From an uncultured Bacteroides sp. (GTDB lineage Bacteria > Bacteroidota > Bacteroidia > Bacteroidales > Bacteroidaceae), in the NCBI GenBank assembly GCA_900557355.1, contig USSR01000026.1, positions 1-21,929 of the forward strand: DNA of 21,929 nt, in the 5' to 3' direction. The translations under genes and the position numbers were made by a program. The notes beneath the pieces were generated by a model, which did no database searches, was not told where the DNA came from, and was given only the letters and a program-made list of their open reading frames with translations. Of this stretch, positions 3,926 through 18,938 are shown one piece after another. Numbering within the stretch: position 1 is the first letter of the stretch; every line of letters starts with the position of its first letter.

Positions 3926-3957
3926 TTTGCATGCAGAATATTATTATTCTACTTTTG
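3926..3957 (+). promoter_or_regulatory. Canonical Bacteroides promoter of the accessory operon
   Basis: A -33 TTTG (3926-3929) and a -7 TACTTTTG (3950-3957, matching TAnnTTTG) are separated by 20 bp, the usual Bacteroides spacing. Transcription would start near 3964, about 105 nt before the truncated DUF445 ORF and 245 nt before the sigma factor gene. It is the only strong promoter I see upstream of the operon. Confidence 0.75.
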
Positions 3958-4068
3958 AAAAAATATAATATAGCTCTTATGTCTTAACACAAAAGAAGTT
4001 AAATACCAGGTGGCAGCTAAATTATTGAAGCCGTACTACCTTCTAATTTAACAAAGAAGGAAAGGAAT

Positions 4069-4194
4069 ATGAAAACACAATTAATAATAGGCCCCCTTGT
4101 AGGAGCAATCATCGGACTCATCACAAATGGCATTGCCATCAAGATGATATTCAGACCATTATATGCCAAATATTTATGGGAAATCATAGTTTAA
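4069..4194 (+). pseudogene. Truncated DUF445-family gene (41-codon N-terminal remnant)
   Basis: The ORF encodes a 41-residue peptide with IGPLVGAIIGLITNGIAIKM followed by IFRPLYAKYLW. This matches my memory of the N-terminal membrane segment and 'G.iiG..TN.iAikMlFRP' signature of DUF445 membrane proteins, which normally run to several hundred residues. It has a good ribosome binding site (AAGGAAAGGAAT) and lies behind a canonical promoter, but stops at TAA 4192-4194. No further DUF445 sequence is found downstream. The sigma factor gene starts 13 nt later. I infer that the rest was lost when the AT-rich operon was inserted, and that the remnant now acts as a leader ORF. Confidence 0.7.
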
Positions 4195-4207
4195 AATCCA
4201 ATATTTA

Positions 4208-4831
4208 ATGATGACAGTTAAACAGATATATACTGAAGATTTGCAACTTGCTAAAGCTTTAATAAAGAGAGACGAGCTAACGACTCGTAAGTTCTTTTAT
4301 AAGCAATGCTATCCTCTCTTTAAATCAATCTTCGACAATTATTACACTGACTGTGAAAATTGCAAGGAGTTTATTGATGAGATTTATTTACTAGTGCTAT
4401 CACCAAGTAAAACTACTGGCAAATGTCAAATGGAGAACTTCCGAGGAGAAAGTACATTGACCAGTTGGTTGAAATCTTCTTGCCTCTTTTACTGCTACAA
4501 AAAGTTTGAAATCAAGGAAAGAATGCCCAAATATGAAAAAATTACGCATCAAAATGAGAATAATTCAGATGAAGATGACAGGAATGACTCAATTTACGGC
4601 TCTTTAGAATTAGACTTTTCAAAACTCAATCGTAATGATGCTATGTCATTATTGAAGCAAATGCCGAACAAGCGTTATAGTGAATTAATTCGCTTGCGTT
4701 ATTTGGAACAGAATACGAATGAGGAAACAGCAAAAGCATTAGGAATGACAATGGAGAATTATTATAGTAAACATAAGCTGGCAAAAGAACAATACCAGAT
4801 AATTCAAAGAAAGGAGGCAAACAATGGATAA
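4208..4831 (+). CDS. ECF-like RNA polymerase sigma factor
   Basis: Sigma-70 family protein of 207 aa. Residues about 15-100 resemble region 2: a helical segment, then FRGESTLTSWLKSSCLFYCY, the equivalent of the 'F.g.s.f.tWL..Ia.n.' stretch of ECF factors. An acidic linker (about 116-130) is followed by a region-4 helix-turn-helix at about 145-200 (LKQMPNKRYSELIRLRYLEQ, then TNEETAKALGMTMENYYSKHK). Start is ATG 4208 or the adjacent 4211. The end overlaps the next gene by 8 nt, with a strong AAAGGAGG site just before it, as in sigma/anti-sigma pairs. It presumably directs RNA polymerase to this or related operons. Confidence 0.85.
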   Translation: MMTVKQIYTEDLQLAKALIKRDELTTRKFFYKQCYPLFKSIFDNYYTDCENCKEFIDEIYLLVLSPSKTTGKCQMENFRGESTLTSWLKSSCLFYCYKKFEIKERMPKYEKITHQNENNSDEDDRNDSIYGSLELDFSKLNRNDAMSLLKQMPNKRYSELIRLRYLEQNTNEETAKALGMTMENYYSKHKLAKEQYQIIQRKEANNG

Positions 4832-5297
4832 TGAATTCATGCTACCTGTAAGTGTTGAAGAATTTGCAGCTTTCCTTGATGGGAATCTTTCTCAAGAGCA
4901 TATGAATAAAGTAGAAACGATCATTGCTACTGATGATGCAATGCATGATATTGCTTTGAATTGTCAAGCTATCGATGATTCGATGACCAATAGTGAATCT
5001 ATAGAGTTAATGCTTCCAGATGAGTTATCATCTCTTGATTTTGAATTACCAATTATAGAAGATAATTACTTCGACGACAATAATTTTGATTATCCTGAAG
5101 TTGCAGCATGCGCAGCAGAACCAATTGATGACACAACAGATGCTGAAGGCACTGATGTGGATTCACCGATTAACGAGGATTAGGATGTATTAAACCATCC
5201 TGGATTCTCAGAGGATGCAACAGAGAATATTGACAATCATTTAACAAACCAAGATGGTGTTGAAAATTTAGACACACTTGAATTTAACGACTTATAG
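4824..5297 (+). pseudogene. Anti-sigma-like acidic protein interrupted by an in-frame TAG
   Basis: The first 119 codons (4824-5183) give a protein whose N-terminus (VSVEEFAAFLDGNLSQEHMN..) resembles the helical N-terminal domain of anti-sigma factors ('e.la.yLdGels..e...ve'). A highly acidic tail follows. The frame is cut by TAG at 5181-5183 but stays open in the same phase for another 37 codons, ending at TAG 5295-5297, three bases before the next ATG. The extension has the same acidic composition (DVLNHPGFSEDATEN...). The full-length version (about 157 aa) would restore the tight gene spacing seen elsewhere, so I read this as a nonsense mutation. The 119-aa product may still work, because the sigma-contact part precedes the stop. 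Confidence 0.65.
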
Positions 5298-5300
5298 AAT

Positions 5301-6347
5301 ATGAGTAGAGAAGCATGTTTTAGCCCTTATATGCTGATTACGTCAGCTCTTCAAACAGTCTTTGGTTTTGAGAGACGCAGTGAACAAGATAAGCAGGCAG
5401 ATATCTCACAACGACATCAAATAGAACTACGCAATGCAAGAGAGGAGTTTCAAGATGAACTTGAAGCTGAAAAAGTTGCTAGTATGAGAGCAAAGATGGC
5501 TGTTGCTCGTAAATATCGTGCCGAAGAAAGATTTGACCAAACAATATTACAACACCGCACAGAGGAATTGAAGACTTTTTTTGTCAAAAGTCTTCCAATC
5601 CAGCAACAAGCGATTCCAATACTCTTGGATATTGCGCAGAATTATAAACAACAGGAATATAGTAATTGTCCATTAAATGTTGTGCTGTTACATACTAAAC
5701 AGGCTGCATTAAATTACAATGATATATGCAATGAACTTGATAAAAACAGCCTGTTGATAGGCAATGTTGAATACCGTAGATGGTGTAACAAAGATATTGC
5801 TCACAATTCAGCAATATTAAATCTACATGCTATTATGAGCAATATACCGACATTGGTTATTTCTCCTAATTTTCAAGGTGGGTCTATACATTTCACAGCA
5901 TCAATGTGGGACGCACAATCAGATGCAAAGCCTTTGATTCGTCCATTATTTTCCATACCCTGTCCTGCTAACTATTTGGCATCACCACAGAGTTTTACCG
6001 GGGAAGGAAAGAAAGCAATAGAAAGTCGTATGGCGTTAATATCAACAATTGTATCTGGATGCGCACGAGACAGTTATATGCTTATGTCACAAGGACGAAC
6101 GCCAACATTGCCTCAATTCTTAAAAAACAACCAAGATGTTTTAAACAATTTGTTAAAGGATGAAAATAAGGAATTGCGTTCATTTATACTTAATGAATAT
6201 AAAGCAATGGAACAATTGCTGGACAAGGCAGATTGTCCAACCCACCTGTTTAATCCTGAAGAAATAAAGAAGTTGGGACTAATTGCAAATAAAGCATCAA
6301 AAGAGCTTCAATGTTTGACACATAACGATTACTTTTTAAGCAGATAG
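5301..6347 (+). CDS. Coiled-coil protein, paralogue of the next gene
   Basis: Family unknown to me; 348 aa. A short hydrophobic/amphipathic N-terminus (about 8-23) is followed by a charged coiled coil (about 25-95) and then a globular part. It shares an architecture with the 531-aa product of the next gene: coiled coil, then NCPLNVVLL (versus NWPLNVLPF), then NIPTLVISPNFQGGSIHF (versus NIPVVVITPYFD..), then a tryptophan-containing strand before a 'P.f.IP' segment, then a helical part ending TPTLPQFL (versus PPRLPELL). No catalytic motif is visible. It has no ribosome binding site of its own, so it is probably translated by coupling to the gene before it. A scaffold or membrane-associated role is only a guess. 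Confidence 0.8.
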   Translation: MSREACFSPYMLITSALQTVFGFERRSEQDKQADISQRHQIELRNAREEFQDELEAEKVASMRAKMAVARKYRAEERFDQTILQHRTEELKTFFVKSLPIQQQAIPILLDIAQNYKQQEYSNCPLNVVLLHTKQAALNYNDICNELDKNSLLIGNVEYRRWCNKDIAHNSAILNLHAIMSNIPTLVISPNFQGGSIHFTASMWDAQSDAKPLIRPLFSIPCPANYLASPQSFTGEGKKAIESRMALISTIVSGCARDSYMLMSQGRTPTLPQFLKNNQDVLNNLLKDENKELRSFILNEYKAMEQLLDKADCPTHLFNPEEIKKLGLIANKASKELQCLTHNDYFLSR

Positions 6348-6351
6348 TAAT

Positions 6352-7947
6352 ATGGATCCAGTAACAATGATGGTGGCAAGTATTGGAATGCAGTTTTTCA
6401 CCCAGCATGCCACAAGTAAAAAAAACGCTGAGATTCAAGAGAAACAACGCGAATTTCAGAAAGCTGCAGCAGAACATGATTTTGAGAGAATGCGTAAATT
6501 ACAAGCAGAGTCCGCTCGGCTTGCTCTAGAACTTGAAGCTGAAGTTCATAAAGAACGTGTTGAGGATATAAATAATAATTATGATGCATTGCTGGAAAAT
6601 TTCGCTCACAGTTTTGCCATACAAAATTGGCCACTTAATGTTTTACCTTTTGTAATGAAAGGCGAATCTTTTGGAAGTTTATTCAATGGAACAACACAAT
6701 CAGTAAATATGCATTGTATACTCACCCCGTCGAACTGTGAGTGGTTTAATGCAATGTTCTATGATGATATTGATCTACGATTAGAAGCTGAATTGAATAA
6801 CAATTGGAATGCTCAAACAACGCATCCTGTGGTTTATTATGGTGGTGGATGGAATCGTAGAACTATGCGCCATGGAATATCTGTTCCTGACGAGATAAAT
6901 CTTGTTGATATAGATCTTCTTAAAGTAAAGCTTAAGAATATTCCCGTTGTTGTTATTACACCTTATTTTGATTATGATTATGATTCTGATCCTGATTCTG
7001 GTTCATGGCTTCAATTTAGAGTACAATTATGGGGCATGGGAAAAGACTCCGACGAACCATTCAGAATATATATACCTCATGGAAACGGCCTTAAATATTC
7101 AAAAAGAATTTTTTCTTATGATTACAATAAAGATATAAAAGATGGAATATCAAGCGATTTCATCAATACAACCATTGAGGAATTCGTTCCATATCTTGAA
7201 AGTCTGATTGGCTTTATTGCTGATAAATATTTTTGGGGAGTATATTCTTTGCCCCCAAGACTTCCAGAACTTCTTGAAAAGGCAACAAGTAATATTAACA
7301 TATATAATAATCAATATATAGCTTTTGCTCAAGATAAATTATGTTTAAACAAGATACCCACACTTAAAGATTTCCATAGTTATATCGAATACATTAAGTC
7401 AATTAAAAATTATGTGGATCAAAAGCAAATAGAAGATATAAAAAAACAGTTGCTAAAAGTCTTTCATGAAACATATATTCCATCACAAAATGAAACCGTC
7501 AATACTAGATCATATGAAGATGTCGTAACATATGTTAATGCAGAACAGCAAAAAGAGGAGTTGTATGAGTGGAGTGATCAAAAAATAATAAATAATGAAT
7601 ATGTTGATTTTATCAATATTGACAGACTAGATATTTCAACATATATAGATGAATTTCGAAACTATATAGATGGTCATGGTGATAGATTCAATCTCAATAG
7701 CATATCTTTATATATAAAGCATGAGGGCTATAAACTATTTGAATTGCTTGTTTATGATGCAGATGGGAAAAAGTATTTAAACACAAAGGATGGTTTTAGT
7801 TATAAAATAACAACTAATCGACCTCTTCATTTTAGGAAGATAAAATACATTTTCAAGAATAATGACCCAGGGGTTATTATATGTAGGTATGATCGACTAG
7901 ATAAATTACAGAATGAATTAACAGAAGAAGAAACTTTAATATTTTGA
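6352..7947 (+). CDS. Coiled-coil protein with extra C-terminal region, paralogue of the preceding gene
   Basis: Family unknown to me; 531 aa. Residues 1-19 are weakly hydrophobic and about 22-75 form a charged coiled coil. A domain shared with the upstream 348-aa protein spans about 90-310 and includes an acidic insert DYDYDSDPDSGS (207-218) absent from the paralogue. A C-terminal region (about 320-531) is unique to this copy. It ends LDKLQNELTEEETLIF, which loosely resembles the tail module seen in several later products of this operon. Four nt separate it from the upstream gene, and its TGA lies 2 nt before the next ATG. Codon use is strongly AT-biased. Confidence 0.8.
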   Translation: MDPVTMMVASIGMQFFTQHATSKKNAEIQEKQREFQKAAAEHDFERMRKLQAESARLALELEAEVHKERVEDINNNYDALLENFAHSFAIQNWPLNVLPFVMKGESFGSLFNGTTQSVNMHCILTPSNCEWFNAMFYDDIDLRLEAELNNNWNAQTTHPVVYYGGGWNRRTMRHGISVPDEINLVDIDLLKVKLKNIPVVVITPYFDYDYDSDPDSGSWLQFRVQLWGMGKDSDEPFRIYIPHGNGLKYSKRIFSYDYNKDIKDGISSDFINTTIEEFVPYLESLIGFIADKYFWGVYSLPPRLPELLEKATSNINIYNNQYIAFAQDKLCLNKIPTLKDFHSYIEYIKSIKNYVDQKQIEDIKKQLLKVFHETYIPSQNETVNTRSYEDVVTYVNAEQQKEELYEWSDQKIINNEYVDFINIDRLDISTYIDEFRNYIDGHGDRFNLNSISLYIKHEGYKLFELLVYDADGKKYLNTKDGFSYKITTNRPLHFRKIKYIFKNNDPGVIICRYDRLDKLQNELTEEETLIF

Positions 7948-7949
7948 TT

Positions 7950-8294
7950 ATGAATTGGAATTATCTGATAATCGGATCAATCATTGCAGCAGGAGGTGCG
8001 GCTATTGCTATTTATCGGAAAAGCAAAATTGGCAAAATGACTTTTACAGACTATTGTTCTAGTTGTGAAAATGCCGCCACATCTGAAATCGTCAATTCTG
8101 ACGATGTAGTTAAAACAATTTTGGTTTTGGCCAAAGTGGATGAAAACAGAATTGCGCCATTTCTTTACCGTAGTTATAAAGATGGTAAAATAAGAAAGAA
8201 ACGTATAGGCTATAAGACCTACCTATTCAGTTTATGTCCAGAAGATGTTCAAGAGTCTATCAATAAAGGTGAATACATTATAAAACGTTATTAA
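7950..8294 (+). CDS. Small membrane-anchored protein with C-terminal tail module
   Basis: 114 aa from ATG 7950; a TTG at 7944 would overlap the upstream stop. One N-terminal membrane helix (about 4-22, YLIIGSIIAAGGAAIAIY) is followed by a basic segment and a soluble domain with cysteines in DYCSSCENA. The C-terminus reads CPEDVQESINKGEYIIKRY, one of the repeated tail modules of this operon, preceded by DGKIRKKRIGYK. The positive-inside pattern suggests a cytoplasmic soluble part. The function is unknown. Its position just before the ATPase gene (1-nt gap) suggests a membrane partner. Confidence 0.75.
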   Translation: MNWNYLIIGSIIAAGGAAIAIYRKSKIGKMTFTDYCSSCENAATSEIVNSDDVVKTILVLAKVDENRIAPFLYRSYKDGKIRKKRIGYKTYLFSLCPEDVQESINKGEYIIKRY

Positions 8295-8295
8295 C

Positions 8296-9225
8296 ATGGG
8301 ATATACATTCATTGAAAAAGACAAGCCAGAGGATTCTACTAAAAAAGGTGGATCAAAGACTTCATTTGTAGCAATTGAACCAGAATGGACTTTGGATCAA
8401 ATAGTTTTCCAAGATTCTTTAAAAGAACAACTTGCCGATATTGTATCGTTTTGTAAAAACAAAGACCAAATCATAAACGATTGGGAATTGTATAGATTTA
8501 TGAAAGGGAAAGGTTGTATAGGAATTAACCTATGGGGAATTCCAGGAACTGGTAAAAGTATTGCGGCAGAAGCGATAGCAGCATCATTAGGGATGAAGCT
8601 AATTCAAGCATCATATTCTTCATTAATGGATAGTTTACAAGGTAATACAGAAAAGAATATATCTGCACTTTTTGAAACAGCTGTTAATGAAAACTGTGTA
8701 ATACTATTTGACGAAGCAGATGGACTTCTTAGTGCTCGCAAAACAGGAGGAGCTAATTCTGAGACATCCAATATGATAAAATCTCATCTACTCAACATAT
8801 TAGATCGAAGTACAGCAATAGTTGTGTTTACTACTAATTTTTTCAAAAGTTATGATCGGGCTTTCGTAAGAAGAATACTTTGGAATATTGAAGTTCCTGC
8901 ACCAGGCCTTCATGAAATGACGAAAATATGGCAATTACATCTAGGGAAAAATGTTCCTAAAGAGATATCATACAGGGAACTTTCAGAATTAGCAATTGAC
9001 CTTTCAAAAGAAAAATCTTTAAATATAACTGGTGGTGATATAAGAAAATTGACCCTTATGTTCTGTACTCAATTAACATCTGGAAGATACCCTGCTATCA
9101 CGAAGGAAGTAGCGAATATGGTACTAACTAAGTATTTGAATGACTTACAAGAGGCTAATCCTGTAAAAAACAAGAGGAAGAAGTCAATCCTAAAGATATT
9201 TCGGAAAAGGTTAAAAACGAATTAA
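8296..9225 (+). CDS. Classical AAA+ ATPase
   Basis: 309-aa ATPase with one AAA module of the FtsH/Cdc48/spastin-like (classical) group. Visible elements are a short N-terminal extension (1-35), Walker A GIPGTGKS (81-88), Walker B VILFDEAD (135-142), sensor-1 Asn in VVFTTNFFKSYDRAFVRR (Asn181), an arginine-finger candidate among Arg188/192/193, and sensor-2 TGGDIRKL (245-252). The C-terminus is basic (KNKRKKSILKIFRKRLK). There is no protease domain or membrane segment in the chain, so any substrate handling must be with partners. It likely remodels or unfolds proteins of this operon; that role is inferred from position. Confidence 0.9.
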   Translation: MGYTFIEKDKPEDSTKKGGSKTSFVAIEPEWTLDQIVFQDSLKEQLADIVSFCKNKDQIINDWELYRFMKGKGCIGINLWGIPGTGKSIAAEAIAASLGMKLIQASYSSLMDSLQGNTEKNISALFETAVNENCVILFDEADGLLSARKTGGANSETSNMIKSHLLNILDRSTAIVVFTTNFFKSYDRAFVRRILWNIEVPAPGLHEMTKIWQLHLGKNVPKEISYRELSELAIDLSKEKSLNITGGDIRKLTLMFCTQLTSGRYPAITKEVANMVLTKYLNDLQEANPVKNKRKKSILKIFRKRLKTN

Positions 9226-9241
9226 ATAAAAATTAAAGATT

Positions 9242-9565
9242 ATGGGCGTTTTTATTATTGTTGCAGCCATACTTGCGCTTGCTGCATATATCTTTCAACA
9301 AATTTGGAAGTTTGCATTAAAATTTTTCTATTATGCCTTATTAGGAGCAATTGAAATCGTAAAAAAGATTATAGTTGCTACCAGGAGACTTGGAAAGGTA
9401 ATGTTTATACTTTACAAACGTCACCAAAATGGTAAAGTTTACAAGGTTAAATACGAAGAAGAAGAGGTTAACGAGGATGATATTCCAGAAGGACTTAAGA
9501 ATGAATTGGAATATCACGAAGAAGTTATTGTAAAAAAAGGAGATATTGACCCATCAGAATTTTAG
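9242..9565 (+). CDS. Small membrane/amphipathic protein with tail module (paralogue 1)
   Basis: 107 aa. N-terminal membrane helix (about 2-19), an aromatic/amphipathic helical stretch (20-60) with basic residues, then an acidic C-terminus containing NGKVYKVKYEEEE and the tail module DIPEGLKNELEYHEEVIVK. It is similar in layout to the next gene (111 aa), which suggests duplication. Family not recognised. It sits 16 nt after the ATPase gene and belongs to the same operon. Confidence 0.72.
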   Translation: MGVFIIVAAILALAAYIFQQIWKFALKFFYYALLGAIEIVKKIIVATRRLGKVMFILYKRHQNGKVYKVKYEEEEVNEDDIPEGLKNELEYHEEVIVKKGDIDPSEF

Positions 9566-9571
9566 AAGAGT

Positions 9572-9907
9572 ATGTTAGATTTACTATATTATTTAGGAGC
9601 AGCTGCAATAGGTGGCGTTGCAGGATATTTCATCGGTAAAGCACTGTCTAAATATTGGGAAAGTGCTAAAAGCTGGTTTGAACAAGTCTGGAAAGGAATC
9701 AAACGTGCAACAAGAGCTGTAGGTATCTTAATTAGGCAAGGCAATCGACTATTTAAAAGATTTGTTACTCTACTGAAAAATGATGAAGTTGAAGAGTATT
9801 ATGACGAGTCTGATGAAGGCGTTGAAATTGAATGGGATAGTCTTACCGACGAGGCAAAAAAAGCATTGGAAGAAGATGAATACATTCTTGTTGCATGTTA
9901 TCAGTAA
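9572..9907 (+). CDS. Small membrane/amphipathic protein with tail module (paralogue 2)
   Basis: 111 aa. Glycine/alanine-rich N-terminal hydrophobic helix (about 5-24, with GGVAGYFIGKAL), then a basic amphipathic helical stretch (28-68, with WKGIKRATRAVGILIRQG) and an acidic C-terminus ending in the tail module SLTDEAKKALEEDEYILV. The organisation mirrors the preceding 107-aa gene, with a 6-nt gap. The amphipathic basic helix next to a membrane segment could be membrane-active, but nothing shows this directly. Confidence 0.72.
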   Translation: MLDLLYYLGAAAIGGVAGYFIGKALSKYWESAKSWFEQVWKGIKRATRAVGILIRQGNRLFKRFVTLLKNDEVEEYYDESDEGVEIEWDSLTDEAKKALEEDEYILVACYQ

Positions 9908-9937
9908 ACGAATTAATTACATTAATATCAAATAATT

Positions 9938-10573
9938 ATGAGCGAATTATTTTCATTTATAAAAGAAATATTTGAAGTAGTGGCTGATTGTTATAAATAT
10001 GCAGAGCTAGACTTCTACAAGTTAAAATCTGAAGTGGTATCCCAACTTGATAAGGCCAAGAATAGAGGTTATGGGATGCCTGATTATGGTTCTCTTTCTA
10101 TTAAGGTTAAGAGTAGAATAGAAACGAGTGTTTTGATTGAAACCTATTATAATAAGGGCAATGGGAAATATCAAAAATTTAAAAAGACTCTTGATCTCGG
10201 AGAATTGACGAATATTCCAAGCGTTGTTAAGAGTAGATTAGATAGAACAGGTGAGGTTGATATTAAACTATCCGACTTTAACAATCTTTATTCTTTGAAT
10301 GAAAGAGATATAATTAATACAGTTGACTTCAAGAATCTCTACAATTTTACACTTAAGAATGCTAAAGGGATTCCTGTAAAAAAGGAACTTCACATTACTG
10401 ATGAGCTCTTCTATTATAAAGTCGTTCTTGTTTATGTCTATGAAAATGAACCCAAAGAAATTCGTATCAAATATTTCGGGAACATTAAAGACATCCCCGT
10501 AGAGGTTATTGAGAAGATAGCTTCAAATGAAGACAAATCATGTTTTCTTGATGTTACAAATACCAATATTTAA
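9938..10573 (+). CDS. 211-aa protein carrying two tail-module-like units
   Basis: Family not recognised. It has no signal peptide and no clear membrane helix. Two parts of the chain look alike: a strand-rich segment followed by NIPSVVKSRLDRTGEVDIKL (about 93-112), and a second followed by DIPVEVIEKIASNEDKSCFL (about 183-202). Each is preceded by alternating basic/hydrophobic strands (KYQKFKKTLDLGEL and PKEIRIKYFGNIK). This suggests an internal duplication of the module that occurs singly at the C-terminus of the neighbouring small proteins. It is preceded by a 30-nt AT-rich gap and followed by the remains of a secreted-protein gene. Confidence 0.75.
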   Translation: MSELFSFIKEIFEVVADCYKYAELDFYKLKSEVVSQLDKAKNRGYGMPDYGSLSIKVKSRIETSVLIETYYNKGNGKYQKFKKTLDLGELTNIPSVVKSRLDRTGEVDIKLSDFNNLYSLNERDIINTVDFKNLYNFTLKNAKGIPVKKELHITDELFYYKVVLVYVYENEPKEIRIKYFGNIKDIPVEVIEKIASNEDKSCFLDVTNTNI

Positions 10574-10584
10574 ATTTGACTAAT

Positions 10585-11030
10585 ATGAAACGATTTAAAA
10601 ATTTACTATCTACAATGTTCGTCGCATTAGTGTGATTTTCAAGTCAACCTATAATGGCTCAAAGTTGGGTGAAAGTTGGTAAAGTTGTTAGCAAACAAGC
10701 AGCAAAAGCAATAAAGCATAACGGCTCAAAACAACAAAATTAACTCGCCCTATTCAAAATCAGCTACTACAACTAGAGGTGTTAGTAAATCAGCAGTAGC
10801 TGGATCTCAAGATATCAAAATACAATACAGTTCTTGTCTGGGTATGATTATAAAATTATAAGACGATACTAATTGAAACACCGTTTTTATTCTTAATCAT
10901 ATGCCACTTATACTAAAGAAATGCAAAGAGTATTAAGATAGAATACTTTGAGCTTGAATATCCTAAGTCTATTAAAAAAGAAGTTGGGGAAAAGTTGTCT
11001 TCACATGCTAAAAAAATCATAAAAGAATAA
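10585..11030 (+). pseudogene. Decayed gene for a small exported protein with tail module
   Basis: The frame from ATG 10585 reads MKRFKNLLSTMFVALV, hits TGA at 10633-10635, then continues FSSQPIMAQSWVKVGKVVSK. Together this is a normal signal peptide with cleavage near MAQ, broken by one stop. About 100 nt further the frame ends, and a neighbouring frame continues (NSPYSKSATTTRGVSKSAVA). Near the end a third piece reads YPKSIKKEVGEKLSSHAKKI and stops at TAA 11028-11030, resembling the operon's tail module. At least one stop and two frameshifts make it a pseudogene. The intact product would have been an exported member of the set. Confidence 0.6.
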
Positions 11031-11037
11031 CGCATTC

Positions 11038-11059
11038 TATTACCTATCTATGGGTAATA
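11038..11059 (+). promoter_or_regulatory. Short hairpin in the leader of the cysteine peptidase gene
   Basis: TATTACC (11038-11044) and GGTAATA (11053-11059) can form a 7-bp stem with an 8-nt loop, 15 nt before the ATG at 11075. It is not followed directly by a T-run, so I do not call it a terminator. It may affect translation or RNA stability. Confidence 0.3.
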
Positions 11060-11074
11060 AAGAAGATTTTTAAT

Positions 11075-12001
11075 ATGCTAACATTCGGACCAAAAGTAAC
11101 TCAGACAGATTTCGACTATAATATCTTCCAAGGTCAGGAGCCAATTTGTGCTATTCGTAGCCAAGAGATGATATTACGAGATTTCGGAATTCAGATTCCC
11201 AAGGAGGAATTAACTGCATATGCAACAGAGCAAGGCTGGTATCATGGTAATGGTACCAAACCAAGCGATGTTGGAAACCTATTAGAGACATGTAATATCG
11301 GAACACATTCTCAGCATTGTGATTCAGTATATGACCTTATCAATGAACTAAAGGATGGTCATAGAGTTATTGTCGGCGTTGATGCACATGAACTTTGGGC
11401 CGAACCAGGCTCAGCAGAATATGAGTATTATCGTAATCTGACTAATGCCGACCATGCCTTAATCGTTACAAGTGTCAATATTGACCCTCTAAACCCTGAG
11501 AATTCTACAGTTGTATTAACAGACCCAGGTAATGGTTCTATTATGGAATATGACTTTGAAAAGTTTGCTCACTCATGGAAGGATTCTAAATATTTCATGA
11601 TGGCAACAGATGAAGCTGCACCTTACCAGTATGATGCAGAAAATCATTGTATGCAAATATCAAATTTTGCAACTGATTTCTCGGTTCAAGAATTCCCATT
11701 TCACAATGAGTTTACCGATATCTGGCAAGTAGATGATTTAGGGTATGTCCCCTACTATTCAGATGGGCATCTGCTAAGCATAACAGATGATTTATCATAC
11801 GATGATTTCAATTATGCATTCAATAGTGATAGTTTTGAGACATTAGATGATTCTTTTAATATAGACGATATAGATGACAGCTGGTCTCATGTAGAATTCA
11901 CTGATAATGACATCATTACAGATATACAACCAATGGGTGATCTTTTTGATTATAGCTCAGAAAGCATGATTGACGATATGCCCTTAAGTTGTGATAGTTA
12001 A
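11075..12001 (+). CDS. C39/papain-like cysteine peptidase with acidic C-terminal tail
   Basis: 308 aa. Residues about 10-180 resemble C39-type papain-fold peptidases: Gln19 six residues before the nucleophile Cys25 (QGQEPICAIRSQEMIL), the segment GNGTKPSDVGNLLE (58-71), His127 in ADHALIVTSV, and Asp150 in LTDPGNGSIMEY as the third residue. The rest (about 180-308) is strongly acidic and aromatic (DDLSYDDFNYAFNSDS and similar), with no known domain. There is no signal peptide and no ABC-transporter fusion, unlike bacteriocin-exporting C39 proteins, so it probably acts in the cytoplasm. The neighbouring acidic protein and SPASM enzyme suggest it may process a peptide, or cleave the acidic anti-sigma-like protein; both are inference. 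Confidence 0.75.
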   Translation: MLTFGPKVTQTDFDYNIFQGQEPICAIRSQEMILRDFGIQIPKEELTAYATEQGWYHGNGTKPSDVGNLLETCNIGTHSQHCDSVYDLINELKDGHRVIVGVDAHELWAEPGSAEYEYYRNLTNADHALIVTSVNIDPLNPENSTVVLTDPGNGSIMEYDFEKFAHSWKDSKYFMMATDEAAPYQYDAENHCMQISNFATDFSVQEFPFHNEFTDIWQVDDLGYVPYYSDGHLLSITDDLSYDDFNYAFNSDSFETLDDSFNIDDIDDSWSHVEFTDNDIITDIQPMGDLFDYSSESMIDDMPLSCDS

Positions 12002-12031
12002 AACAATTGTTTAATAAAAGAACTATTTAAT

Positions 12032-12550
12032 ATGAACATGGATGAAATGATACCATTAGAGGACGGCATGGAAAATCCAATCTATGAAGATACAACTGAT
12101 GTTTTGGGTTCTAGTAGCCACAGTCCTTTCAGTTCCGGATTTGATGATGAACATCCAATTCCATCATACGAAGAGCTACGAAATGCCGGATTTAGTGATT
12201 ACTTAGCTCATAATATATCAGAAGGGGGATGTCATTCTTACTCTGAACGCGAACTTTTTCATGTATTATATGAGTCAGACGACCCTGTATCAGCTTACAA
12301 TGACATGATGAACGGAAAAGCCCAAGCTGTCATAATTAAAGCTGACATGATTGCTGATAATATTGAGAACAGTGGATTATTAGGAACATCTATTGAGGAA
12401 GAGATGAGCAACGTTGACGATCCTTATAATAACCCTAGTTCACAAACGACAGAAGAAGCCCCCCAATTAGGCCTATCTGATTGTTGGCCCGCTTGCAAGG
12501 CCATAACCGGAGATGTTTCCAATAATGCAAATTTTGGATTCCATGCTTAA
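12032..12550 (+). CDS. Acidic Cys-containing protein, candidate radical SAM substrate
   Basis: 172 aa, no recognised family. The N-terminal half is acidic and rich in Ser/Asp/Pro. A Gly-Gly followed by Cys occurs at 65-67 in AHNISEGGCHSY. The middle (68-120) is probably helical. The C-terminus holds a compact segment GLSDCWPACKAITGDV (147-162) with Cys151 and Cys155. It lies directly between the C39-like peptidase and the radical SAM maturase, where a precursor peptide is often found. GG before Cys67 would fit cleavage by a C39-type peptidase. I consider it a candidate substrate. It could equally be a structural acidic partner like the other acidic proteins here. Confidence 0.65.
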   Translation: MNMDEMIPLEDGMENPIYEDTTDVLGSSSHSPFSSGFDDEHPIPSYEELRNAGFSDYLAHNISEGGCHSYSERELFHVLYESDDPVSAYNDMMNGKAQAVIIKADMIADNIENSGLLGTSIEEEMSNVDDPYNNPSSQTTEEAPQLGLSDCWPACKAITGDVSNNANFGFHA

Positions 12551-12579
12551 TGAGTAGACAATGGTTAAAGTAGAATCGT

Positions 12580-13869
12580 ATGCATACATTCTCCACTACA
12601 TCGGGTAAACTTCTATGGTACGAGGTTAAAGACAATAGGATATATCTTTGGTCTTTAGATAAAGAACAACAGGTATTTCCTATTGTTCATTTTACTGCTC
12701 CTATGACCCTTGATTCTTCTAAGATAGCAAAATTCACCATCGAGATGACTCAGCAATGTAATCTAAGGTGTTCATATTGTTGTTTTTCGGGAGATTACCG
12801 AAATCTGAGAGCTCATAATGAAAAAGAAATATCTTACGAGACATTAAGAAGTGTAGTAGAATTTATAAAAAAACATGCAGACAAGGAAGCATCAGAAATT
12901 ACTGTTTGCTTCTATGGTGGCGAAGCTTTATTGGCAAGAAAGAAAATAAATTGGATTATTTCAGAGCTTAAAAAAGAGTTTGCTGAAAAAATAAGATTCT
13001 CGCTTTCTACAAATGGTTTAGCCCTAACTGAAACTGTCGTTGATTGGATATGTACATTCAATAAATTTCTTGTCAATGTTACGCTAGATGGGAATAAGTT
13101 TATGCACGATAAGCATAGGAGAACAATATCAGGAAATGGATCTTATGATGTTATCATAAAGAATTTAGAACTTTTCAAGACAAAATATCCAGAAATTTAC
13201 CAGAATCAAGTGCGGTTTCTGTCCACGATATATTCGTGGAATGATGTCATACATCTTGATGAAGTGTGGGATAATGAACCTGTATTAAAAGGCCATTACC
13301 CAATACACATATCTCATATTATCCCTAATTTTTCTGACCAATCGCGTACATACGATACATGGGAAATAAAAGATAAATTCTATCAAAAGGCTTTCTATGC
13401 ATACCAAACAGGCAAAAAGGGAATCCTTGCCGGATGCTTTCAGGAATTGATAGATATAGTTGATAATCGGAACTATCTGAAGCTACCTAATGAATTGAAA
13501 ATAGAGACTTGCTTTCAAAAGCTTTTCTCTTGTTTTATAAACGTTGACGGAGATTTATATGCCTGTGAAAAGTTCAGTGGTAACTTAAAGATGGGTAACA
13601 TAAAAGATGGCATCAATTCAGAGCTCTCATACACTCTACTGAATCAATTTACGGATAGAAAGAATAGGCTTTGTTCTTCTTGTTGGGCTCAACGTTTCTG
13701 CCGGATGTGTATAACTAATCTGAATTACACTGATGAAGAAATTAAAGCTATGTGTAAGATGGAAAGAGACACCATTGACTTGGCCTTAAAATACTCTTGT
13801 GAGCTAAAAGATTGGGAACAAGGTAATATAACATTAAAAATAAATATTTATGGCACTATTGGAAATTAG
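12580..13869 (+). CDS. Radical SAM/SPASM peptide-modifying enzyme
   Basis: 429 aa. The radical SAM [4Fe-4S] motif CxxxCxxC is at Cys60, Cys64 and Cys67 (CNLRCSYC). The SAM-binding GGE motif is at 113-115 (FYGGEALL). The C-terminal SPASM/twitch part supplies auxiliary cluster cysteines: Cys318 and Cys329 (CFINVDGDLYAC), Cys365, Cys368, Cys374, Cys377 (CSSCWAQRFCRMC) and Cys392. This is the layout of RiPP maturases that form C-S or C-C crosslinks. The 50 residues before the core could be a peptide-binding domain. The 172-aa protein just upstream and the 36-aa peptide overlapping the 3' end are the nearest possible substrates. The reaction is not determinable from sequence. Confidence 0.9.
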   Translation: MHTFSTTSGKLLWYEVKDNRIYLWSLDKEQQVFPIVHFTAPMTLDSSKIAKFTIEMTQQCNLRCSYCCFSGDYRNLRAHNEKEISYETLRSVVEFIKKHADKEASEITVCFYGGEALLARKKINWIISELKKEFAEKIRFSLSTNGLALTETVVDWICTFNKFLVNVTLDGNKFMHDKHRRTISGNGSYDVIIKNLELFKTKYPEIYQNQVRFLSTIYSWNDVIHLDEVWDNEPVLKGHYPIHISHIIPNFSDQSRTYDTWEIKDKFYQKAFYAYQTGKKGILAGCFQELIDIVDNRNYLKLPNELKIETCFQKLFSCFINVDGDLYACEKFSGNLKMGNIKDGINSELSYTLLNQFTDRKNRLCSSCWAQRFCRMCITNLNYTDEEIKAMCKMERDTIDLALKYSCELKDWEQGNITLKINIYGTIGN

Positions 13870-13960
13870 CGAAACCGAGCCTCTTTATATAATAATAGCA
13901 GCAGTAGTAATATTGCTATTTTGGGGGCTTTTTAAAATGATTGGCAAAAAGAATAAGTAG
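13850..13960 (+). CDS. 36-aa single-pass membrane peptide
   Basis: A short ORF starting inside the last codons of the radical SAM gene (20-nt overlap, different frame) encodes a peptide with an acidic N-terminus (MALLEISETEP), one strong membrane helix (LYIIIAAVVILLFWGLF) and a basic end (KMIGKKNK). The ordered acidic-hydrophobic-basic layout argues for a real gene, although there is no clear ribosome binding site beyond an AT-rich stretch. The following metallopeptidase fragment is in the same phase, separated by two TAG codons. It could be the N-terminal anchor of a once longer protein, or a separate small membrane peptide. Confidence 0.5.
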   Translation: MALLEISETEPLYIIIAAVVILLFWGLFKMIGKKNK

Positions 13961-13972
13961 CACTTCCCTTAG

Positions 13973-14323
13973 AACAATGATAGCCATCGTCCTGCAACAA
14001 ATATCCGTTCCGAACAAATGGAGGCAAGCTTGTCTGGCTATCAACTCAACGGTTACATTGCTATAAACGAATCAATGTTTGAACTGCCTGGTACGAATCC
14101 TGCGATATTGGATAAAATACTTGAAACTTTAATTCACGAAGGCCTTCACGCATATCAACACTATAATGTTGAGGAACACGTGGTTCACCAATCAGAAACA
14201 CAAGTGCATGAACTATCTTGCTGCACTATTGACAATGGATTGGTTGATAAAAGAACCGGAAATAGCAAAGCCAATAATGGAAGGGTTCTTAATAATATAA
14301 GAAAAATAATCAAGAAAAATTAG
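13973..14323 (+). pseudogene. Fragment of an HExxH zinc metallopeptidase-like protein
   Basis: The open frame begins right after TAG 13970-13972 with NNDSHRPATNIRSEQ and has its first ATG at 14018. It contains HEGLHAYQHYN (His/Glu/His zinc-protease motif, about residues 38-48 from that ATG) in a context typical of small metallopeptidase or toxin domains (YIAINESMFE upstream). A further acidic residue in QSETQVHEL may serve as the third ligand. The portion before residue 1 that would complete such a domain is missing, so I read this as a 5'-truncated gene. Translation from 14018 would give 101 aa, and a short functional protein cannot be ruled out. Confidence 0.55.
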
Positions 14324-14365
14324 AATAAACCGACTTTTTTAGTTCATCATTACCAAATGGTTTAG

Positions 14366-14390
14366 TAACTATATAAGCCTATAATAGTTA
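14366..14390. repeat. Small inverted repeat at the right edge of the AT-rich region
   Basis: TAACTAT (14366-14372) and ATAGTTA (14384-14390) form a 7-bp inverted repeat in the 136-nt gap between the metallopeptidase fragment and the DUF1232 gene. A TAAATTTC just after it is one base from the -7 consensus but lacks a good -33 element. It could be an operator or a chance AT-rich match. Confidence 0.3.
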
Positions 14391-14459
14391 AATTTCGTTT
14401 TATCTGCAAGAAAAATAAAGATTCAGCCTCTATATAAGAAACAGTTAAAATGAAATTAT

Positions 14460-14816
14460 ATGAAAAAGCAAAGCCTCATCAACTACCCCCTATTATGGGA
14501 AAAACTTGGCGACTATGCCAGAAGAGCAGGAAGAGTAAGCGCACGCCCTTTACTCCTATTGTATTATGTAATGAAAAGCCCAGATACTCCCAAATCAGAC
14601 AAGCTACTCATTGCATCTGCAATCTCCTATTTAGTGTTCCCCATTGATTTAATTTCGGCTAAACGCCTACCCATCATCGGCTGGATAGACGAAGTAGTAT
14701 CACTAACCATTGCCTATCAAAAGGTGTGCAAATACATTACCCCTGAAATTGAATCGGAAGTAAATAACATTCTGGAACGATGGTTCCCCGAATGTAAATA
14801 TGAACTAATATCGTAG
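14460..14816 (+). CDS. DUF1232 (YkvA-like) membrane protein
   Basis: 118 aa. The core SYLVFPIDLISAKRLPIIGW, followed by IDEVVSLTIAY (about 61-90), is the DUF1232 signature ('Yl..P.DliPd.ipviG..DD'). It is preceded by a moderately hydrophobic helix (RPLLLLYYVMK). Family members are small membrane-associated proteins of unknown role. I chose ATG 14460, because the ATG at 14450 opens a different frame without similarity. It starts a plus-strand cluster of better-composed genes (less AT-rich than the operon before it), 27 nt ahead of the YbjN-like gene. Confidence 0.8.
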   Translation: MKKQSLINYPLLWEKLGDYARRAGRVSARPLLLLYYVMKSPDTPKSDKLLIASAISYLVFPIDLISAKRLPIIGWIDEVVSLTIAYQKVCKYITPEIESEVNNILERWFPECKYELIS

Positions 14817-14842
14817 GACTCTATAATAGAAAGGAAACAATC

Positions 14843-15331
14843 ATGGAAACAACAACACTAAAACCCTTAAGAATACACCTTCAAGAATTCCTGGAAAGCG
14901 TTGGCGCAGATTATCAATGTGACGAAGAAAACCACTTCTTTACATTTGGCATGACAAGTAACGGCATGAACATAAGAGCCTTCATTCTGTACAACGAAGA
15001 AAACGACTGGATGAGATGCCACATGCCTATGCCGGTCAAAGTTCCGGAAGAGAAAAGAACCGCCGCCATACTTCTTCTGAACAAGATGAACAATGAAACT
15101 CCCGGAATATGCCTCAGCATGGACGAAGAAGACGGAGAAATCGTATCTACGATGATGGTCAATACAGACAACGGCGCTATCAACTACCCGATTCTAAATG
15201 CAATGATACACACTTGTTATAACGCAATCGATGCTTGCATACCCCGTATAATGCAACTAATATATCAACAACCAGAAGATATGTTATTGCAAATCTCAAG
15301 CAAACAAATCAATAACAGCATAGCAAACTGA
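14843..15331 (+). CDS. YbjN-like domain protein
   Basis: 162 aa, soluble. The fold pattern resembles YbjN-type (type III secretion chaperone-like) proteins: N-terminal helix (IHLQEFLESVG), a strand pair (HFFTFGMTSNGMNIRAFILY), a central helix (EEKRTAAILLLNKMNNE), strands (GICLSMDEEDGEIVSTMMV) and a final long helix. A good ribosome binding site (AAAGGAAAC) precedes the ATG. It lies between DUF1232 and the ADP-ribosylglycohydrolase with short gaps, probably one transcript. The molecular role is unknown. Confidence 0.65.
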   Translation: METTTLKPLRIHLQEFLESVGADYQCDEENHFFTFGMTSNGMNIRAFILYNEENDWMRCHMPMPVKVPEEKRTAAILLLNKMNNETPGICLSMDEEDGEIVSTMMVNTDNGAINYPILNAMIHTCYNAIDACIPRIMQLIYQQPEDMLLQISSKQINNSIAN

Positions 15332-15351
15332 CAATAAAAAGATATAATAGT

Positions 15352-16434
15352 ATGGACGAGAAAATACAAAAAGACAGAATACGCGGCTCATTGATAGGCG
15401 GAGCCATAGGCGATGCTTTAGGCTATCCTGTAGAATTTATAGACTCGTATGCAGGTATTCAAAGGAAATATGGGAACGCAGGAATTACCCGTCTTGACAC
15501 CAGGCAATGGTGGAAGGGCGAAGACTGTCCTACCGGAAAGGCTTGGGTTTCTGATGATACACAAATGACACTGTTTACAGCCTGTGGCATTCTGAATGCA
15601 AAAGAAAAAGGGAATGCTCTCATACCAAGTATTTGCGAAGCTTACATAGAGTGGTATTATACGCAATCAGGCAGGAGAAACAAGCGTTTTAAGGAATGTT
15701 GGATCGGAGATATCCCAGAACTGAATCAACGCAGAGCCCCCGGCAATACCTGCCTCACTGCCCTTTCTGACATTATTGCCGGAAGAGATTCCCATAATAA
15801 CAGTAAGGGGTGTGGTGGCGTTATGCGCATCGCCTCCATTCCTCTATACGGTGTAGCCCAAGGGCGAATATCAGATATAGATGCTCTTGACCGCCTTGCA
15901 GCGGATGCCGCAAAACTTACTCACCAGCATCCGTTAGGTTTTATTCCGGCAGCCTTTACAGCCCATATCATTTATCGTCTGGCTACCGACGAGCATCCGG
16001 AGAAGGAGACATTCAGAAACTATATTCAGGAAGGGTTGGAATCCACACAACGAATGTTTGCCAACCATACCGAAGAAGTAGAAAAATTTGTTTTCTTGAT
16101 AAAGAAAGCGGTCCTTTTGTCGGATATCCCGACAGATGATGTACGCGCCATCGAAGACGAGTTGGGTGGCGGATGGGTGGCTGAAGAAACCGCCGCCATA
16201 GCCATCTACTGTGCTTTGACCTATTTTGGGAACTTCGAAAGAGCTATGATTGCGGCTGTGAATCATGCAGGTGACAGTGATTCCACAGGTGCTGTGACCG
16301 GTAACTTGTTGGGTGCTGCCATCGGTTACGATGCAATACCACAATTCTACAAAGACGACTTGGAACTGCACGATGTGATATTGCATATCGCTGATGACCT
16401 GTACCTCAGCAAAACAACATCCTACCGGAAGTAA
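15352..16434 (+). CDS. ADP-ribosylglycohydrolase family protein (DraG-like)
   Basis: 360 aa, cytoplasmic. The family's metal-binding residues are visible: GGAIGDALG near the N-terminus (16-24), SDDTQMTLF (67-75, Asp68/Asp69/Thr70), the middle NSKGCGGVMRIASIPL (150-165), and the C-terminal HAGDSDSTGAVTGNLLGAAI (305-324, Asp308/Asp310). Such enzymes remove ADP-ribose from arginine or other residues, or hydrolyse related ADP-ribose compounds, using two Mg or Mn ions. It is followed 51 nt later by a PARG-type hydrolase, which suggests a shared ADP-ribose pathway. The precise substrate cannot be told from sequence. Confidence 0.92.
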   Translation: MDEKIQKDRIRGSLIGGAIGDALGYPVEFIDSYAGIQRKYGNAGITRLDTRQWWKGEDCPTGKAWVSDDTQMTLFTACGILNAKEKGNALIPSICEAYIEWYYTQSGRRNKRFKECWIGDIPELNQRRAPGNTCLTALSDIIAGRDSHNNSKGCGGVMRIASIPLYGVAQGRISDIDALDRLAADAAKLTHQHPLGFIPAAFTAHIIYRLATDEHPEKETFRNYIQEGLESTQRMFANHTEEVEKFVFLIKKAVLLSDIPTDDVRAIEDELGGGWVAEETAAIAIYCALTYFGNFERAMIAAVNHAGDSDSTGAVTGNLLGAAIGYDAIPQFYKDDLELHDVILHIADDLYLSKTTSYRK

Positions 16435-16485
16435 GATAAATATCGATAGCAATTTTAGGATTGTTGAATTTAAACATATAAACTT

Positions 16486-17460
16486 ATGACAAATACATGG
16501 AATGCTGAAATATGGAAAAAAGAATTCCTACTTGCTTCACAAAACAAGGACAGAGACCAACTACGCAGGCTACGTGTGGCAGTATTTCAAGATACAATCA
16601 CACGCATAAGTAACAGTGGATATATTTCAGCAGGCAAAACCATACAGATTGCAGGCGAAGATTCGATGATACACCATACTAAATTTTATTGTGAGCAGAT
16701 ATCATCAGTCCATACTCAAGCGGAAATACAAACCATCGTTCATGTTATAAATGGCGATACATTGGTTACTGCCAAGTCATTATTGGATGAGGGTCTTCAT
16801 CCCGCTGTACTGAATATGGCAAGCCGACAAAATCCGGGTGGTGGCGTATATAGCGGTGCAGGAGCTCAAGAAGAGAACCTGTTCCGTCGTACTAATCTTT
16901 TTCGTTCGCTATTTCAGTTTGCATCTTATGCCGAGGAGTATGGCTTGAACAAATCAACCGACCAATATCCTCTCGACCGTAATTGGGGCGGCATTTATAC
17001 TCCTCAAGCCTGCGTGTTTCGTGGAACAGAAACTGATGGTTATCCTTTGCTTGAAGAACCGTATTACCTTGACTTCATAGCCGTCCCTGCCATCAATCGT
17101 CCGGAACTGGATACGGACGGATTGATTGTACCGTATCTTGTGGATGCCACGAAGAACAAGATGCGTACTATCTTCCGCATTGCACTTGCCAACAATAATG
17201 ATTCCCTCGTGCTTGGAGCTATGGGATGTGGAGCATTTCGTAATCCACCTGCCCACGTCGCACGAATTTTCCACGAAGTAATGGATGAAGCGGAGTTCAA
17301 GAATCGGTTCAAGAAAATAGTTTTTGCAATTCTTGACGACCACAATGCCGGGCATAAGCATAATCCAAACGGGAATTTCCAACCCTTTGAAAAAGAATTT
17401 CAAAATTACAGTAAGAATGAAGAAGAGGTGCAAGAAAAAATCTTTTATGGCAGATTATAG
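16486..17460 (+). CDS. Bacterial-type poly(ADP-ribose) glycohydrolase-like protein (TIGR02452/DUF2263)
   Basis: 324 aa. It has the microbial PARG signature GGG-x(7)-QEE at 118-130 (NPGGGVYSGAGAQEENLFRR), with Glu129/Glu130 as catalytic candidates. It also has the macrodomain-like NMASRQNPGG start and the later VLGAMGCGAFRNPP phosphate-binding loop with the following helix (AHVARIFHEVM). The family hydrolyses ADP-ribose polymers or terminal ADP-ribose units. With the DraG-like gene upstream it forms a two-enzyme ADP-ribose-removal cassette. A small frameshifted ORF overlaps its 3' end. Confidence 0.9.
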   Translation: MTNTWNAEIWKKEFLLASQNKDRDQLRRLRVAVFQDTITRISNSGYISAGKTIQIAGEDSMIHHTKFYCEQISSVHTQAEIQTIVHVINGDTLVTAKSLLDEGLHPAVLNMASRQNPGGGVYSGAGAQEENLFRRTNLFRSLFQFASYAEEYGLNKSTDQYPLDRNWGGIYTPQACVFRGTETDGYPLLEEPYYLDFIAVPAINRPELDTDGLIVPYLVDATKNKMRTIFRIALANNNDSLVLGAMGCGAFRNPPAHVARIFHEVMDEAEFKNRFKKIVFAILDDHNAGHKHNPNGNFQPFEKEFQNYSKNEEEVQEKIFYGRL

Positions 17461-17559
17461 AATTATTAATGGAAACCTGATGCGGATAATGATATTATCC
17501 GATTAAAAGAATTCTGTGATGAGAATAATATTTCCTATCACTATGAAATGGAGGATTAA
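17447..17559 (+). pseudogene. Small ORF overlapping the PARG-like gene, frameshifted
   Basis: ATG 17447 lies 14 nt before the end of the PARG-like gene and reads MADYRIINGN. Around 17476 a one-base shift is needed to continue with PDADNDIIRLKEFCDENNIS and YHYEMED, ending at TAA 17557-17559. The joined product would be about 38 residues, acidic and soluble. As written, neither frame is complete: the first stops after 19 codons and the second has no start. No family is recognised. Confidence 0.4.
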
Positions 17560-17561
17560 AA

Positions 17562-18749: not shown

Positions 18750-18854
18750 CATGTGCCTATAGGCCGCAATCATCTTATTTTTCCCACTCAATCCAATTAT
18801 AAAGCCACATAGCCATGAAGGCAGCTTCTTATTCAATTTTTATTTATTATATAA

Positions 18855-18886
18855 TTTTGATATAACAAATAGTTCTTTTAACTTTG
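18855..18886 (+). promoter_or_regulatory. Bacteroides-type promoter of the DUF5723 gene
   Basis: A -33 TTTTG (18855-18859) and a -7 TAACTTTG (18879-18886) are separated by 19 bp. Transcription would start near 18893, about 46 nt before the ATG at 18939. Confidence 0.75.
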
Positions 18887-18938
18887 CAACAACAAATATA
18901 AGTAATCATTAACAGTAATCCACAATTTACGAAGCACA

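Follow-up and report, generated by a model that had tools for sequence, protein, structure and literature searches.

The packing of 13 open reading frames (ORFs) on one strand between positions 4208 and 14323 of contig USSR01000026.1, from an uncultured Bacteroides sp. (assembly GCA_900557355.1), raises the question of whether these genes form a single system and, if so, what that system does. The stretch of DNA analyzed, here called the window, is 21,929 nucleotides long, and the genes of the block run in the order A (sigma factor), B, C, D, E, F (AAA+ ATPase), G, H, I, a degenerate gene, J, K, L, and M. Comparison of the block with its relatives in other genomes showed that several cassettes can be exchanged behind a constant head formed by the sigma factor, B, C, and D, and that the genes of the AAA+ set make up one of them. 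The original prediction, which was made from the letters of the window, had described an AT-rich, same-strand block of about 10 kb with this gene set and order, and that description was borne out by the ORF listing and by a G+C content of 0.295 to 0.369 (1-kb windows) in the block versus 0.39 to 0.46 farther out on both sides, with transition zones at 3.0 to 4.5 kb and 14.0 to 15.5 kb.

Constant head and exchangeable cassettes

We read 18 island loci from 17 other genomes (L001 to L005, L018 to L020, L027 to L029, and L051 to L057). The head, defined as sigma, B, and C/D in this order with no more than two genes between, was present in 16 of the 18; the genes interposed were a peptidase gene in L020, L028, and L053 and a small ORF in L027 and L028. 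L001 belongs to a metagenome-assembled genome (MAG) and carries sigma, B, C, D, E, an AAA+ gene 65% identical to F, G, and H in the window's order, at which point the contig ends. A second contig of the same genome (G001; locus L040) ends with J, two short genes sharing the K core, and a radical S-adenosylmethionine (SAM) enzyme. The earlier inference of one system is thus supported by a head order that 16 of the 18 loci share and by the E-AAA+-G-H order in L001, and the suggested check for same-order co-occurrence of the AAA+ and coiled-coil genes gave L001, which keeps sigma through H and has J, K-like, and radical SAM genes on its second contig. We also looked for the case named as refuting the prediction, homologs scattered and unlinked, and did not find it. 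Chance juxtaposition of the block genes was rejected, since their order is kept in other genomes.

The genes that follow D fall into distinct cassettes. The AAA+ cassette was seen in the window and L001; septin/AIG1-like GTPases follow D in L002 and L004, a dynamin and a dynamin-collar protein in L003 and L051, a dynamin pair in L019, L029, and L056, a single dynamin in L027, Hsp70 in L028, and WG-type proteins in L020 and L053 to L055 (that of L054 has no Pfam match and was named from its cluster). L018 and L052 carry only HEXXH proteins in this place, and L005 and L057 are cut within C/D. The exchange can be followed at the DNA level between L003 and L004, which are 81% and 78% identical across the sigma, B, and C genes and into the start of D and 71% identical at the terminal peptidase gene, with no DNA match across the intervening nucleoside triphosphatase (NTPase) genes (dynamin and dynamin-collar versus septin/AIG1-like).

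The islands are sporadic. Five D loci came from genome_contigs. Genomes encoding D numbered 5 of 399 for the family of G004, which is a Paraprevotella MAG; 4 of 398 for the genus of the Prevotella MAG G005; and 7 of 397 for the family of G001, a MAG whose title reads Bacteroides sp.; each set includes its central genome. Both positives among the 44 genomes in the genus of G003 were already in the family-of-G004 set, and the single positive in a class-wide draw of 395 genomes around G004 was the central genome itself. L054 and L055 are 83 to 90% identical in DNA inside the island, and their flanks do not match; a tyrosine recombinase gene adjoins sigma in L001, L002, and L019. None of the 27 viral contig stretches that matched a pattern encodes D by tblastn, and tblastn gave no match among 72,556 plasmid records.

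Some members have features of their own. In L003 (13999 to 15465) and L051 (10398 to 11801), one protein joins a dynamin-type GTPase domain to a phage tail collar domain. Behind its GTPases, L004 encodes three small proteins that belong to a single family (14005 to 14739) and are perhaps counterparts of E, G, and H. The nuoN-like genes that flank the Hsp70 island of L028 on both sides (4042 to 5451 and 18883 to 19956) are 83% identical over 300 residues, reflecting either a duplication or an assembly artifact.

The coiled-coil proteins C and D

C and D are named by no library scanned, and D has no family above the cutoff in Pfam, NCBIfam, PADLOC, or PHROGs and no clear fold match. That the two are paralogs, as had been claimed from their sequences, was confirmed by a D profile, which matches the C genes of L004 (E value, 7e-7) and L003 (9e-7).

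D combines a constant N-terminal part with a variable C terminus. The protein collection held 312 D homologs; in the 120 listed, residues 1 to 305 are kept at 68.7 to 99.7% identity to the window protein, and the C termini fall into six clusters, one with 71 members that include the window's type and the others with 35, 7, 4, 2, and 1. Two homologs (P0011 and P0012) share 93% identity with the window D in the constant part and have C termini unrelated to it; P0002, which has the window's C-terminal type, is 86% identical in the constant part and 70% in the C terminus. Five C-terminal variants had no Pfam family above the cutoff.

We then compared the C termini of 16 D proteins (15 loci and the window, leaving out L005, L020, and L057, in which D is cut or broken). 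They were related in 10 of 10 pairs with the same cassette module (E value of 2e-4 or better) and in 3 of 110 pairs with different modules (1e-3 or better; L002-L003, L028-L053, and L028-L055). Among the 22 different-module pairs with close constant parts (1e-20 or better), the C termini of 19 stayed above 1e-3. Kinship and module are separable in only two pairs, L003-L051 and window-L001, in which the constant parts are about as distant from each other as from other-module relatives, yet the C terminus follows the module. Across loci, the C-terminal type of D follows the cassette, and D is predicted to be an NTPase adaptor that docks its cognate engine. In L020 (9656 to 11265) the D gene is broken into two overlapping frames, another decayed copy.

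Sigma factor, B, and island peptidases

The sigma factor reached 42.6 bits with TIGR02937 (cutoff, 42.9), and its Pfam region 4 match was under the cutoff. B begins within the sigma gene (4824 versus the sigma end at 4831) and has no match in Pfam, NCBIfam, or PHROGs; in five islands (L019, L027, L029, L051, and L056), it is fused to a C39-like domain. The original prediction had placed a canonical promoter, TTTG-N-TANNTTTG, at 3926 to 3957, and this did not hold beyond chance, because the two matches in the window were equaled in 24 of 100 shuffles. Sites in a sigma-70-type promoter scan were likewise no more numerous than in shuffles, and no motif common to the regions upstream of 16 sigma genes (15 loci and the window, leaving out L027, which lies too near its contig start) was found by a simple pattern and 10-mer comparison. 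A 41-codon ORF lies just ahead of sigma (4069 to 4194) and, judged by eye from a motif, presumably resembles the start of a DUF445-type membrane protein.

Every island not cut by a contig end (15 of 15, leaving out L002, L005, and L057) has a C39-like or an HEXXH peptidase. Seven carry the C39-like kind (L001, on its second contig, L019, L027, L028, L029, L051, and L056) and eight the HEXXH kind (L003, L004, L018, L020, and L052 to L055); the window carries both, as J and the 101-residue fragment M. J scored 22.0 bits with PF13529 against a cutoff of 24, which the homologs in L028 (29.4) and L056 (25.4) exceed, and the J ortholog in L040 had no Pfam match at an E value of 0.01. The C39 active-site Gln, Cys, His, and Asp were invariant in all eight aligned proteins. 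The HEXXH motif was present in 10 of 10 members of the other protein family, of which the L003 member has no Pfam match; we take these proteins to be metallopeptidases from the look of the motif. The presence of a peptidase in all uncut islands and the fusion of a C39-like domain to B in five suggest that proteolysis may be tied to sigma release.

The peptide part of the window

L matches PF04055 (radical SAM) and PF13186 (SPASM) above the Pfam cutoffs and has the motif CNLRCSYC (CX3CX2C). Its nearest relatives are CcpM, PapB, and related maturases, all under their cutoffs, and PDB entry 5wgg, which we take to be CteB; this nearness makes a thioether-type cross-link the likely product of L. 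The neighboring protein K appears to be a precursor. Among 60 K homologs, a DCWPxCK-type core is found at the end of 43 (40 under the strict pattern) and a DCRSEC-type core at the end of 6 (5 under the strict pattern); 11 have neither, 3 of these being apparently truncated or frameshifted by eye. Four members with the second core type share 53 to 64% identity with the window protein in their bodies and 31 to 35% in their cores. K is a putative precursor with an exchangeable CX3C core, and next to L it gives the arrangement typical of ribosomally synthesized and post-translationally modified peptides (RiPPs), an adjacent precursor with a leader and a modifiable core. In L040, two short genes with the second type of K core lie beside a radical SAM enzyme 41% identical to L.

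Only 1 of 11 island genomes searched contains K, which indicates that the peptide maturation part is an add-on and not part of the core. Relatives of L (E value of 1e-10 or better) occur in 4 of the 11, with adjoining K-like genes in G001 only. A second radical SAM/SPASM enzyme (L041, 5105 to 6847), 30% identical and with a C-terminal extension, lies beside HEXXH proteins in G133, an island genome, on a contig other than that of the island. Behind the radical SAM gene of L040 (664 to 8194) are a kinase-AAA fusion, two YbjN-like genes, a WG gene, a vWA-like gene, and then DUF1232 genes; other genes of this locus are presumably Sir2-like and PP2C-like.

Proposed function and alternatives

The claim that the block matches no known system holds in the libraries and literature searched, and the literature searched gave no description of this gene set. 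The function guessed in the original prediction, a regulated conflict or peptide maturation system, is plausible. We hypothesize that the islands are regulated conflict or stress islands in which a sigma-B-(C)-D head precedes exchangeable NTPase cassettes, D docks the cognate NTPase, and a peptidase frees the sigma factor, and we put the probability of this reading at roughly 0.45. It builds on features observed by comparison of loci, namely, the order of the head genes, the swapping of cassettes, the division of D into a constant and a variable part, the agreement of its C-terminal type with the cassette, the peptidase in uncut islands, and the B fusions. B would hold sigma inactive until a signal is sensed via C/D or via the peptidase; B or some other protein of the island would then be the target of the peptidase, and sigma would raise island expression. 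As the effector step, the AAA+ ring docked on the D C terminus would remodel or extract the small membrane proteins E, G, and H. In the window version, L would cross-link the CX3C core of K to yield an extra signal or effector peptide.

Several observations weigh against this hypothesis. The putative anti-sigma role of B draws on order, overlap, and acidity in a protein with no Pfam match, and in L018 and L052 no sigma and B genes precede C and D (a longer sigma-like gene, L031, lies farther down the contig of L018). In the comparison of D proteins, the C-terminal boundaries and module labels were set by the analyst, two of the 19 different-module pairs were borderline (E values of 0.0014 and 0.0052), and most same-module pairs are also close kin, so that kinship confounds the match; the Hsp70 island L028 has the D C-terminal type of the WG islands. 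The order from H to J in G001 spans two unjoined contigs, which we infer to be a single island. Finally, the window copy is partly decayed, B being interrupted by a stop and one gene being degenerate, and may not be fully working.

If the hypothesis holds, unrelated NTPase engines (AAA+, dynamin, septin/AIG1-like, and Hsp70) would be interchangeable effectors behind one regulator, and the role of such bacterial dynamins and AAA+ proteins could be tested by comparing cassettes under the same head. A bolder form, which we regard as doubtful, is that of a plug-in immune-like system of gut-type Bacteroidales, in which a sigma-switched coiled-coil adaptor would fit itself to different engines (AAA+, dynamin, septin/AIG1-like, or Hsp70) through a change of the docking domain at its C terminus, and in which an intracellular, radical SAM-cross-linked peptide would be added as messenger or effector in the AAA+ version.

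An unlikely alternative is anti-phage abortive infection proper, with D or C sensing a phage product, the NTPase acting as killer or pore former, and sigma only setting the dose. The sporadic, mobile, cassette-swapping nature of the islands speaks for it, a Cdc48-like AAA and a caspase gene lie about 5 kb behind the L019 island, and the PADLOC model nearest to F is the defense ATPase IetA (E value, 9e-32). The IetAS defense system consists of the AAA+ protein IetA and the subtilisin-like protease IetS, and the block resembles it in combining an AAA+ protein with a peptidase. It differs in its many other genes and in the score of F with the NCBI model NF042959, 102.8 bits, far under the cutoff of 510, and no subtilase match that could represent IetS was found by Pfam among the 13 island proteins. 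Abortive infection is further weakened by the lack of any known effector domain by Pfam in D or five of its C-terminal variants and of any PADLOC system matched as a whole. The L019 gene pair occupies 16652 to 19405, behind the dynamin-pair island, and its caspase matches PF00656 at 71.6 bits.

The islands resemble two kinds of described conflict system in their design. MoxR-vWA pairs or GTPase-GAP1 are the basis of the NTP-dependent conflict systems described by Kaur et al. 2020 (PMC7159879), which, like the islands, combine a constant core with parts that vary, use AAA+ or GTPase engines, in some cases with HSP70, have peptidases as a second switch, and often lie near the membrane. The islands differ in that their constants are sigma, B, C, and D and that the window AAA+ is of the classical kind (PF00004) and has no vWA protein, no vWA match having been found by Pfam among the 13 island proteins. 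No GTPase domain was found by Pfam among the 13 island proteins of the window, with no search aimed at GAP1, and GTPases do occur in other members of the family. In the ECF-sigma-linked EACC2/caspase systems of Kaur et al. 2021 (PMC8195603), a sigma factor, there of the extracytoplasmic function (ECF) type, likewise stands beside a peptidase-centered system with variable C-terminal domains, but EACC2 and caspase are the constants there, whereas the islands have C/D, C39-like or HEXXH peptidases, and NTPase cassettes. D resembles polymorphic toxins (Zhang et al. 2012, PMC3482391) in its constant N terminus and exchangeable C terminus and differs from them in having no recognized trafficking or toxin domain.

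A quite unlikely possibility is an envelope or protein quality stress system, in which no invader is involved and the NTPases, controlled by sigma, would serve to repair or remodel complexes of membrane or protein. The exchangeable engines (AAA+, dynamin, septin-like, and Hsp70) are remodeling NTPases, E and G have hydrophobic N termini, and WG and DUF1232 genes are frequent neighbors, but a housekeeping role does not predict islands that are mobile and found in few genomes per group.

Radical SAM/SPASM RiPP clusters of the CcpM and PapB kind also pair a maturase with an adjoining small protein that has a C-terminal Cys-containing core, and the window block differs from them in having no transporter and in being embedded in a sigma-headed NTPase island. 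The reading of the whole block as such a cluster, with J removing the leader of K, L cross-linking its core, and the remaining genes regulating or exporting the peptide, would account for the K body with its swappable CX3C core beside L and a C39-like protein and for the recurrence of these three at one end of a G001 contig, but it is improbable given that K was found in 1 of 11 island genomes, that some islands in which no K turned up have J homologs fused to B, and that the block has no C39 ABC transporter, which most Bacteroidales RiPP clusters examined in a survey reportedly have (PMC10352776). In the window, a peptide maturase of the radical SAM kind lies within a sigma-headed island that has no exporter of its own.

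Gene content and integrity of the window copy

The features of the window are collected in Table 1. All 13 proteins were scanned against Pfam, ten against NCBIfam, six of these against PADLOC, and ten against PHROGs. The families named by the libraries were the sigma factor (just under the cutoff), AAA+, the C39-like domain (under the cutoff), and radical SAM/SPASM; B, C, D, E, G, H, I, K, and M had no family above the cutoff in the libraries against which each was scanned. The present comparison gives boundaries to the families B, C, D, and K, for which those libraries hold no model above the cutoff.

Table 1. Features of the window, with coordinates and the evidence for each assignment
Feature	Coordinates	Strand	Evidence
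A, sigma factor, ECF-like, first gene of constant head	4208..4831	+	TIGR02937, 42.6 bits; homologs head 16/18 island loci
B, acidic sigma partner, putative anti-sigma	4824..5183	+	alignment of 6 relatives; 33 D/E, 1 K/R
C, coiled-coil paralog of D	5301..6347	+	31-35% identity to C of five loci
D, coiled-coil, predicted NTPase adaptor	6352..7947	+	constant first ~305 residues, variable C terminus
E, small protein with hydrophobic N-terminal stretch, AAA+ cassette	7950..8294	+	L001 ortholog in same place
F, classical AAA+ ATPase, nearest to Cdc48/IetA-type models	8296..9225	+	PF00004, 87.3 bits
G, small membrane protein, AAA+ cassette	9242..9565	+	hydropathy; L001 ortholog
H, small membrane-type protein, AAA+ cassette	9572..9907	+	L001 ortholog, 53% identity over 92 residues
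I, uncharacterized, weakly similar tail	9938..10573	+	no Pfam family above cutoff; four-way tail block
Degenerate small gene(s)	~10585..11031	+	reading frames with stops: start with in-frame TGA, open tail fragment later
J, C39-like cysteine peptidase, acidic tail	11075..12001	+	PF13529, 22.0 bits (under cutoff); active-site residues
K, putative precursor, conserved body and C-terminal DCWPACK core	12032..12550	+	60 homologs, two core types or none
L, radical SAM/SPASM enzyme (CX3CX2C), CcpM/PapB-like	12580..13869	+	Pfam; 41% identity to L040 enzyme
M, HEXXH metallopeptidase fragment (HEGLH)	14018..14323	+	motif; no Pfam family above cutoff
DUF1232 protein, recurrent island neighbor, treated as flank	14460..14816	+	PF06803, 36.2 bits

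Walker A and B motifs are present in F, and E more likely starts at the ATG at 7950 than at the listed TTG at 7944. The shared tail module proposed for E, G, H, and I proved weak: the pairwise comparisons failed (at best, 163 of 2,000 shuffles did as well), and the score of the best four-way block, 82, was reached in 8 of 400 shuffles. In B, an in-frame TAG at 5181 to 5183 is followed by a frame that stays open until a stop at 5296 to 5298. This stop, the degenerate gene, and the fragment M together suggest that the window copy may be decaying.

Flanking genes

Neither attachment repeats at the island ends (the longest shared word, 11 bases, was no longer than in shuffles) nor tRNA genes were found in the window. 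To the right (14460 to 18749) lie DUF1232, YbjN, ADP-ribosylglycohydrolase, microbial PARG, and WG genes; the flank labels DUF445-like, CbbX-like, and RelA-like are our assumptions from the look of the sequences. Of 150 genomes from one genus, 7 had a match to the ADP-ribosylglycohydrolase; five of these seven neighborhoods were read, and none was a clean empty site. Homologs of the DUF1232 gene lie near islands in L018, L028, L030, L040, L051, and L056. Gene sets like the right flank occur near other islands as well as without an island in L066 and L068, and because these two loci carry related flank genes with no island, we treat the right flank as a separate locus.

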